Shown here one piece after another: positions 2,896-7,358 of a stretch of 35,523 nt of DNA; within the stretch, counting starts at the first letter, position 1; every line of letters begins with the position of its first letter. The DNA lies in assembly GCA_021813425.1 (NCBI GenBank), contig JAKAKQ010000270.1, forward strand, positions 1 through 35,523. Reading direction: 5' to 3'. A program made the position numbers and the translations under genes. The notes under the pieces are model-generated. The model had not been told where the DNA came from. It did no database searches and worked only from the letters and a program-made list of their open reading frames with translations. This DNA comes from Nitrospirota bacterium. GTDB lineage: Bacteria > Nitrospirota > Thermodesulfovibrionia > Thermodesulfovibrionales > UBA6898.

Positions 2896-3246
2896 TTATG
2901 ATTGAGCTGAAACAATCGCCTTCAATTTTTTCTTTAACTCAGGCAGGTCTTCCCTAACCACATCCCAGACAGTTTCAAAATCCACAGTATCATACGCATG
3001 AATGATACGATTTCTCATTCCAATTATCTTTCGCCATTCTATTTCCTTATGTCTTTCTCTGAAAGAGGCCGTAAGTTTTGATGATGCCTCGCCTATTATC
3101 TCCAAATTTCTGACAACTGCATCCATCAGTAATTCATTCTTCATGAAATCTTCTCTTTCAATGCCTTTGCAGAATTTGTTTATTTTCTTTATTGCCGATA
3201 GTATATCATCAACATAAACCAGATTATCTTTCCTGATTTTTTTCAC
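2896..3246 (-). CDS. hepT: HepT-like RNase toxin (DUF86)
   Basis: A 116-aa helical protein with the HEPN/DUF86 signature R-x4-H-x-Y at residues 78-85 (RNRIIHAY), the metal-independent RNase motif of HepT toxins. The preceding IEWRKIIGMRN is also typical. Length matches the family. Its start overlaps the end of the nucleotidyltransferase gene by ATGA (3243-3246), so the two are translationally coupled. In characterised systems the MntA partner AMPylates the motif Tyr, here Tyr85, to silence the RNase. The motif is complete, so the toxin looks functional. Toxin-second order (antitoxin gene first on the minus strand) is normal for this pair. Confidence 0.9.
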   Translation of the reverse strand: MKKIRKDNLVYVDDILSAIKKINKFCKGIEREDFMKNELLMDAVVRNLEIIGEASSKLTASFRERHKEIEWRKIIGMRNRIIHAYDTVDFETVWDVVREDLPELKKKLKAIVSAQS

Positions 3247-3521
3247 AATATTGCAGTGAGGTCTTTTTCGATATATGGTTTAAGTCGTGGTTTAATTGAA
3301 CGGTATATTACAACATCTACGTTTTTACCGGTTTCATCTTCCAGTTCCTGCTCGACGCCAACCAAATCAAGCAGTGAAAATTTCCCCTTCGGAGGCTCAA
3401 TAGCTATATCTATATCGCGGTATCTTTCTTTTCTTGCAAAGCTGCCGAATAGATAAGCTTCCCTTATCCCATGCTCGCTTAATACTTCTTTTATTGTTCT
3501 AATAATCTGCTCGCGCTTCAT
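3243..3521 (-). CDS. mntA: MntA-type nucleotidyltransferase antitoxin
   Basis: A 92-aa minimal nucleotidyltransferase. The fold signature is LFGSFARKERYRDIDIAIE (residues about 24-42), with the GS of the nucleotide loop and the DID metal-binding acidic pair. In known HepT/MntA systems this enzyme transfers AMP from ATP to a Tyr of HepT, neutralising it. The catalytic residues appear intact. It is the first gene of the pair and overlaps hepT by 4 bases. A candidate promoter lies just upstream. Confidence 0.88.
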   Translation of the reverse strand: MKREQIIRTIKEVLSEHGIREAYLFGSFARKERYRDIDIAIEPPKGKFSLLDLVGVEQELEDETGKNVDVVIYRSIKPRLKPYIEKDLTAIL

Positions 3522-4738: not shown

Positions 4739-4780
4739 AATAAATACCCCGTTTTTGAAATTTAAAAAAATGAAACTAAT

Positions 4781-4903
4781 GTGCTGTCTGTAACACTTCT
4801 CTACACTGTCATTGCGAGGAATGAAGTGACGAAGCAATCTAAAGACGAGATTCTTCGCTTCGCTCGGAATGACAGAATGAGTAAGGTTATTTTAAGACAG
4901 CAC
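4781..4903. repeat. MITE-like element, copy 1, with 6-bp flanking duplication
   Basis: A 123-bp element bounded by the inverted repeat GTGCTGTCT / AGACAGCAC and flanked on both sides by ACTAAT (4775-4780 and 4904-4909), which looks like a target duplication. The core has a second inverted pair CTGTCATTGCGAG...CTCGGAATGACAG containing the familiar genome-repeat text (gaagcaatct, gattcttcgcttcgctcgg). It shares its architecture and core with 19240-19364. It encodes no protein; short ORFs reading through it (VIARNEVTKQS and similar) are spurious. Confidence 0.75.
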
Positions 4904-4943
4904 ACTAATAGTATTCCGGCTTTAACAAACTTGCATACCGTTG

Positions 4944-5483
4944 TTACTTCTTCCCGAATATGCTGCATATTGACCGTCCCAATTCCTTGTCAACAATAAA
5001 GGCGCTGTCAAGGTGCAATTCAACTATAATGTCTATTTTATCAATCAGATTTCCCATGTTCTTCATACATCCAACTATCTGGATGATCCGGATATTTCCC
5101 ATATCAAACAGTCTGCTTATCTGTTCCATGTGTGCATTGCTTCGGCCGTATATTTCATCGATTATAAGTATAATATCATCCTTTGTGATCAGCAGTTCAT
5201 TCAGATCCTCAACTATCCTGATATCTTTTTTCAATGACAGAATATATTTGAGATATTTCTACTAGCTGCCTGGCCGCAGTTTCCCTTCATAATCAAGAGG
5301 GTTCCCTGAATAGCAAACGTTGGTGTTGTCTTTGACCGCCATGACAGTGTTTGTTATTTTCCCGACCCCCTCGATGCCGCAGATGAGCACATTTTTGCAG
5401 CAGTCAATAGCCTTCCTTATATTCTCAGCATTATCTTTTGTGAAGATAATGTTTACGCAACCTTCTTTAGAATTGTTTTTCAT
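4944..5483 (-). pseudogene. Small P-loop NTPase-like gene interrupted by tandem TAG TAG
   Basis: Two listed ORFs, 5262-5483 (73 aa) and 4944-5234 (96 aa), lie in the same frame. They are separated by two consecutive amber codons at 5264-5262 and 5261-5259; the frame then stays open through KYLKYILSL into the second ORF. Joined, this is 179 codons. The first half has a Walker A-like LICGIEGVGKIT, degenerate because the residue after GK is Ile. The second half has a Walker B-like DDIILIIDEIYG. I do not recognise the family; a small P-loop ATPase is all that can be said. An extended -10 (TGGTACAAT, -10 at 5507-5502) precedes the ATG at 5483. It sits between two repeat elements of different families, suggesting decay. 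Readthrough of the ambers is possible but less likely. Confidence 0.55.
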
Positions 5484-5551: not shown

Positions 5552-5741
5552 TACACTTAATTCATAAATTTTACTGAATGCCGAAAGGATATAGTATTTG
5601 AGCGGTTTTATTTGGCCGATATTCAGACAGTATATATTTTGATAAATAAAGAGGGCAAATTCCTCGGAGGTCGAAGACCGAGAATGAGCGAGGATACTAT
5701 GTCCTTTCGTTATTATCATAGTTTATGAATTATCCGGGCTA
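5552..5741 (-). repeat. Nested-palindrome repeat element, copy B
   Basis: Read on the minus strand, this runs from TAGCCCGGATAATTCATAAAC (shared end) to about TTTATGAATTAAGTGTATTA. Internally it has a second inverted pair, CGAAAGGATATAGTAT (5582-5597) with ATACTATGTCCTTTCG (5694-5709). It also has a small hairpin around CTCGGTCTTCGACC and a conserved core (actgtctgaatatcggc). It aligns along its whole length with the copy at 14056-14252. The listed ORF 5480-5719 lies mostly inside it and is not a gene. Its terminal TAG forms the stop codon of the ubiB-like gene. Confidence 0.75.
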
Positions 5742-7358
5742 ATCCCTCATCAGCCTGAATACAGACAACAAGCCCAAAATTACTGCAGCAGCGGCTGCAA
5801 CAAGTGCAAGCGTTTTATTCCCGATCAATATAAAAAAGAGTGAAGACGCAGCGGTTGTCACAGTCAGGATCACGAGCATCATGACATTTGTCATGGACTT
5901 GAACTGGCCTGTGATCTTCTGCATCTCTGATTTTGAAAGCCTGAAAGACAGTTCACCCCTGTTTGCCTTTGAGAGAAATTCATTTATTTGTAAAGGCAAA
6001 CCCCATAGACTCCCTATTTTATCTCTCAGGTCCGTAAAAATCTGCTCTCTCTGCTCCCTGTGGCTTCCCCTGAGGAACTCTTTTATATAGGGCTTTCCGA
6101 TTTCGATGATATTTATTTCGGGGTTAAGATTGAAAGCGATCCCGTTCAGTATCCCTATAGTCCTTCCAAGGAGTATGAAGTTGTTTGGTATCTGTATGTA
6201 TTTAATAATGCTGATGATATTCTCTATCTCTTCGGAGATGTCATCAACAGAAAGGGCCTTAAGTTCCGCCGGGGTGATATCCCTGTATTTGTCTATCAGG
6301 GATTGTGCAACATTGGTTAATGCACCATAATCAGCTCCCTCTATAATAAAACCCATTTTTTCCATCGATTCTATTATCCTAGATGTATTCCTTTCAACCA
6401 GGGAATTGGCAAACCTTCGCAGTTCTCTTTTTATAGTGTCAGGTATGGCCTGCACCATGCCGAAGTCGACAAATACCAGCTTCGGACCTTCCATCACAAA
6501 TATATTCCCCGGGTGTGGGTCGCCGTGGAAGAAGCCGTGGATAAAGATCATCTTTGAATATGCCTCTGCAACGAGATTTACGGTCTCCTTGCAGTTAATG
6601 CCCGCTGCCTTAACAGCAACACAGTCTGTTATCTTGATGCCTCCGACGAATTCAAGTGTTAAAACCTTCGGTCTTGTGTAATCCCATTTTACAAGTGGTA
6701 TTATTATCCTTTCATCTTCCCTGAAATTCTCCCCGAACCTTTCGGCATTTTTACCCTCCTGAATATAATCAAGCTCAGTCCTGATTATCTTCGAAAACTC
6801 TTCATGGAGTATCTTGAGGTTTATATTCCCATGCCTGCCCCGCATTATCTTTACAAGTACATAGAACATCTTTATGTCGGTCTCTATGATCTTCTCTATA
6901 TCAGGGTACTGGATTTTAACGGCGACTTCCTGGCCATTTTTAAGGACTGCCTTGTGGACCTGCCCGAGTGATGCGGCTGCAACCGGCTCTTCATCAAATT
7001 TCGAAAAAATATCTTCAGGGGCTGAACCAAATGCATCGATAAGCTGTCTTTTTATCTCAGGGTAATCATGGGGCGGGACCTGATCCTGAAGTTGAGAGAG
7101 CTCGGATATATATTCATCCGGAAGAAAATCTATCCTCGAACTCAGAAACTGCCCGACCTTGATCATAACGCCTTTCATCTCAATGGCCTTTTTCCTTATA
7201 AGAGAGGCGTTTCTTTTATGGAGCTTTTTAAGGTAGGCAGATTGTGTCCCGGAAGACATAAAGATCATAAATATCTTTGCAGCTTTATAGGAAAGCAATA
7301 TCCTTAGCGCTACAAAGAGCCCTTTTAAAAATCTTCTCCGATAATATATTTTTGTCAT
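5739..7358 (-). CDS. ABC1/AarF/UbiB-family atypical kinase
   Basis: A 539-aa protein-kinase-like protein of the UbiB/ADCK type, a family tied to isoprenoid-quinone synthesis or lipid homeostasis at the membrane. Visible motifs are KxGQ at residues 67-70 (KVGQFLSSR), the Ala-rich nucleotide loop AAASLGQVH (about 127-135) replacing a Gly-rich loop, VAVKIQ with the conserved Lys at 148, HGDPHPGNI (278-286) and DFG (298-300). Two hydrophobic helices close the C-terminus (about 490-535), as usual for bacterial members. It lies 37 bases downstream of trmJ on the same strand, probably one transcript. Its stop codon TAG is the first triplet of the adjacent repeat element, so the native 3' end may have been altered by that insertion. 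Confidence 0.92.
   Translation of the reverse strand: MTKIYYRRRFLKGLFVALRILLSYKAAKIFMIFMSSGTQSAYLKKLHKRNASLIRKKAIEMKGVMIKVGQFLSSRIDFLPDEYISELSQLQDQVPPHDYPEIKRQLIDAFGSAPEDIFSKFDEEPVAAASLGQVHKAVLKNGQEVAVKIQYPDIEKIIETDIKMFYVLVKIMRGRHGNINLKILHEEFSKIIRTELDYIQEGKNAERFGENFREDERIIIPLVKWDYTRPKVLTLEFVGGIKITDCVAVKAAGINCKETVNLVAEAYSKMIFIHGFFHGDPHPGNIFVMEGPKLVFVDFGMVQAIPDTIKRELRRFANSLVERNTSRIIESMEKMGFIIEGADYGALTNVAQSLIDKYRDITPAELKALSVDDISEEIENIISIIKYIQIPNNFILLGRTIGILNGIAFNLNPEINIIEIGKPYIKEFLRGSHREQREQIFTDLRDKIGSLWGLPLQINEFLSKANRGELSFRLSKSEMQKITGQFKSMTNVMMLVILTVTTAASSLFFILIGNKTLALVAAAAAVILGLLSVFRLMRD

Follow-up and report, generated by a model that had tools for sequence, protein, structure and literature searches.

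The source genome is a fragmented assembly of 3.51 Mb in 398 contigs, 97.65% complete, and the window analysed here spans bases 1–35,523 of a contig of 43,369 bases. On the minus strand of the window, a frame of 179 codons plus a terminal TAA runs from the ATG at 5483 to the TAA at 4944 (positions 4944–5483). Frame reading, together with intact full-length homologues of 54–69% identity in genomes of the same family, identifies this frame as an interrupted P-loop NTPase-like gene. The sole internal stops are two consecutive TAG codons at 5264–5259, corresponding to codon 74 (5262–5264) and codon 75 (5259–5261). The N-terminal half (5265–5483, 73 amino acids), as delimited by frame reading and the family alignment, contains the P-loop motif GIEGVGKITNT, and the C-terminal half (4947–5258) contains the Walker B-like sequence IILIIDE; the first common in-frame start of the latter is the TTG at 5234, and the codon usage downstream of the ambers is coding-like. 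The minus-strand reading bears out the coordinates and description given in the first-pass annotation, namely a TAG TAG in frame between two open reading frames, with the remainder of the frame free of stops until the TAA at 4944. In a survey of about 604 kb of this genome that included the window, stops with at least 50 open codons on either side were found at 731 sites, 48 of them tandem, and the TAG TAG described here is the only one of these 48 that clearly scores as coding on both sides. The interrupted frame is one gene, its two parts being the halves of one protein.

The gene is flanked by two elements with inverted ends. About 70 bases separate the ATG from an upstream dispersed repeat of roughly 185 bases (5556–5742), the inverted ends of which are imperfect (AATTCATAAA and TTTATGAATT); the part that was searched matches the genome at more than 40 places, with identities of up to 97%. 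This repeat is possibly MITE-like and may have influenced the promoter of the gene. Just downstream is a 125-base element (4780–4904) with perfect 10-base inverted ends (TGTGCTGTCT and AGACAGCACA), flanked on each side by a CTAA direct repeat, for which the 604 kb contained partial matches only. Scanning the locus for promoters and terminators gave results at chance level. Further along the minus strand (2896–3521), a HepT-like gene overlaps a small nucleotidyltransferase gene in the layout of an MNT-HEPN toxin-antitoxin pair. Synteny was informative in part: among the neighbouring genes listed for the homologues, the ABC1-kinase gene is found near the homologue in G008, and the neighbours differ otherwise. 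The homologues in L093 (another genus of the same family) and L095 (another family of the same order) are situated near HPPK (folK)-like and aminotransferase-like genes, as judged by eye from the translations.

The protein was found in 28 of 100 relatives searched, comprising 22 of the 26 genomes of the same family and six others of the order, with 34–73% identity over the matched part. None of the homologues in these 28 genomes has an internal stop besides its natural end. The named relatives that carry the protein are Nitrospirae metagenome assemblies. Four genomes of the same family, including two with a completeness of 96% or more, do not have the gene, which can therefore be lost. A phylum-wide search found the family in 24 of 296 genomes, all within the order to which the window belongs. 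The first-pass annotation noted Walker A-like and Walker B-like text on either side of the stops, and both are present, although the Walker A sequence, GIEGVGKI, departs from GK[ST] by having isoleucine in place of serine or threonine after the lysine. The isoleucine of this GxxGxGKI P-loop (5355–5378, minus strand) is invariant across the family and is thus not a mark of decay. The window protein retains all family-invariant residues, among them GxxGxGKI and the DE pair in the Walker B-like strand. As a Walker A this motif is unusual; the family is conserved in other respects and has no curated model.

Sequence searches of Pfam, NCBIfam, PHROGs and the PDB returned no family above cut-off; the weak matches to AAA_14, AAA_22 and VirB11/TrbB were all far below the curated cut-offs. 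A structure model of the intact homologue L039, built from an alignment of four sequences, has a predicted P-loop fold (mean pLDDT 80, pTM 0.80), and Foldseek matched it weakly to PhoH2, CobU and a VirB11 homologue, corresponding to P-loop NTPases in general with TM scores of about 0.4–0.5. The family resembles the AAA/VirB11/CobU-like P-loop NTPases in its modelled fold and in these weak matches, but it differs from them in the sub-cut-off sequence scores, the modest structural overlap and the isoleucine after the P-loop lysine. The gene is best explained as an ordinary representative of a small, uncharacterised P-loop NTPase-like family of this bacterial order.

The codons at the stop site were read in 26 of the 28 homologues. 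At codon 74 the relatives have TAT or TAC, with TTC in one genome, and at codon 75 they have GAN, so that tyrosine (phenylalanine in one case) followed by glutamate or aspartate occupies the positions of the two ambers; the codon pair is mostly TAY GAR. The homologues in G019 and G022 fall outside this count. Contig ends cut the homologues in G003, G005 and G019, the last of which ends short of the site, and the homologue in G022 has no internal stop. In the nearest relatives codon 75 is GAA, not GAG; other members of the family commonly have GAG. The genus is represented by no other genome among those found, and the allele is therefore seen once.

A single substitution of the adjacent doublet that spans the two codons, with GT replacing TG or CG, turns TAT GAG or TAC GAG into TAG TAG. 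When all adjacent doublets were enumerated in 12 family genes, just 2–9 per gene would produce two stops, and the pair at codons 74–75 was among such sites in most of these genes. In prokaryotes, most substitutions of two adjacent bases occur as one event; for adjacent synonymous double substitutions, used as controls, about 70% were estimated to be simultaneous across 37 prokaryote groups (PMC6916188). Both ambers therefore probably arose from one two-base change, although the GAA of the nearest relatives means that either an earlier synonymous change of GAA to GAG or a third change must be assumed as well. The earlier view that two adjacent ambers would be odd for random decay fails on this point, because one adjacent change is sufficient to generate both, and the most likely reading of the locus is an ordinary gene that broke recently, as opposed to a novel way of decoding.

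Comparison with the nearest relative (L010, 69% identical) gives 39 differences at first, 26 at second and 94 at third codon positions. The excess at third positions is alike in both halves, for which dN is about 0.20 and 0.21; dN/dS itself is not reliable since synonymous sites are near saturation in this comparison. Lineage-unique changes number 10 in the window gene and 11 in the nearest relative, so the relative rate is even, with no excess. Apart from the ambers, the frame shows no faster evolution than the closest intact relative, and the break therefore appears to be recent. The rate pattern argues against long neutral decay, but it fits a very recent break, an error and continued function alike.

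The evidence says that TAG works as a stop in this organism. RF1 is encoded intact (533 bits against a cut-off of 423). Among the papers listed by a literature search on pyrrolysine or TAG in Nitrospirae, none refers to Nitrospirae. The genome has no PylS above cut-off, the best match scoring 26.5 bits against 178. At a loose threshold PylS matches occur in all 14 control genomes, one of them above cut-off, so that 26.5 bits is background-like. The first-pass annotation had suggested looking for an amber-suppressor or pylT-like tRNA and for many other in-frame TAGs. No CUA anticodon was seen in the 37 of 38 above-cut-off tRNA matches to which ARAGORN gave an anticodon, the other being a weak match at C379. 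The set of tRNAs found is visibly incomplete, tRNA-Asp and tRNA-Ile being among those not called, and absence of a suppressor tRNA is therefore likely, short of proven. Within the 604 kb, TAG terminates 50 of 241 long open reading frames and accounts for four of the 15 stops that have a coding-like stretch on either side, which amounts to no excess of in-frame TAG; these 15 stops are probably mostly neighbouring genes that share one frame.

Taken together, the best reading, which we consider quite probable, is that the interrupted frame is a real, ordinary and recent nonsense pseudogene of a P-loop NTPase-like gene. The gene would have been inactivated recently in this lineage by the adjacent two-base change of TAY GAG to TAG TAG. 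Translation would stop after 73 residues, with RF1 reading the double amber, and the downstream half would be untranslated or made just incidentally, with presumed loss of function. The locus resembles recent bacterial nonsense pseudogenes in having intact homologues, an in-frame stop, an undecayed frame and a gene absent from some relatives. It differs from them in that two adjacent stops are present, not one, for which a single doublet change accounts. A very recent pseudogene was one of three options raised at first pass, and it is supported by the sense codons of the intact homologues and by the lack of excess changes on the branch; of the other two, amber recoding is contradicted by the RF1, PylS, tRNA and TAG results, and split genes with a TTG restart have no positive support.

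An intact remainder of the frame would also be seen with a sequencing error, or with a split gene that still functions. In the former case the cell would have Tyr-Glu codons and an intact gene, as the fragmentation of the assembly and the lack of decay elsewhere in the frame could suggest, but a length-preserving two-base difference is atypical of short-read consensus errors. We regard an error as unlikely, and the TAG TAG is presumed to be present in the DNA of the cell.

It is highly improbable that the locus makes two working polypeptides, with the N-terminal half ending at the ambers and the C-terminal half restarting at the TTG at 5234 or elsewhere, and the halves then reassembling. In favour of this, both halves are equally conserved, and a start codon, this TTG, lies 24 bases past the second stop. 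Against it, the TTG is not preceded by a Shine-Dalgarno sequence, although several homologues likewise lack one at their own starts, and a restart there would drop eight mostly conserved residues (KYLKYILS). In the L039 model a helix of residues 73–84 sits between P-loop and Walker B strand, which places the break inside the predicted core, where this helix begins. No split relative was found among the 100 relatives or the 296 phylum genomes. That the double amber itself created a two-gene NTPase, whose C-terminal half restarted just past the stops and joins the N-terminal half, is highly improbable.

Amber recoding is not supported: read-through by a suppressor tRNA or pyrrolysine to yield the full protein would suit the in-frame TAG, the intact frame beyond it and a tRNA set incomplete enough to miss a suppressor, but it would need two consecutive read-throughs at a site where homologues carry sense codons, in a genome that has RF1 and in which the searches found neither PylS above cut-off nor a CUA tRNA, nor any surplus of TAG within coding frames, and it appears extremely remote.

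The locus serves mostly as a caution: two adjacent in-frame stops may pass for design or recoding when a single doublet mutation in a Tyr-Glu codon pair is enough to create them. It further draws attention to an uncharacterised P-loop family that, within the phylum, was found in this order only and is kept in most genomes of the bacterial family, although it can be lost.
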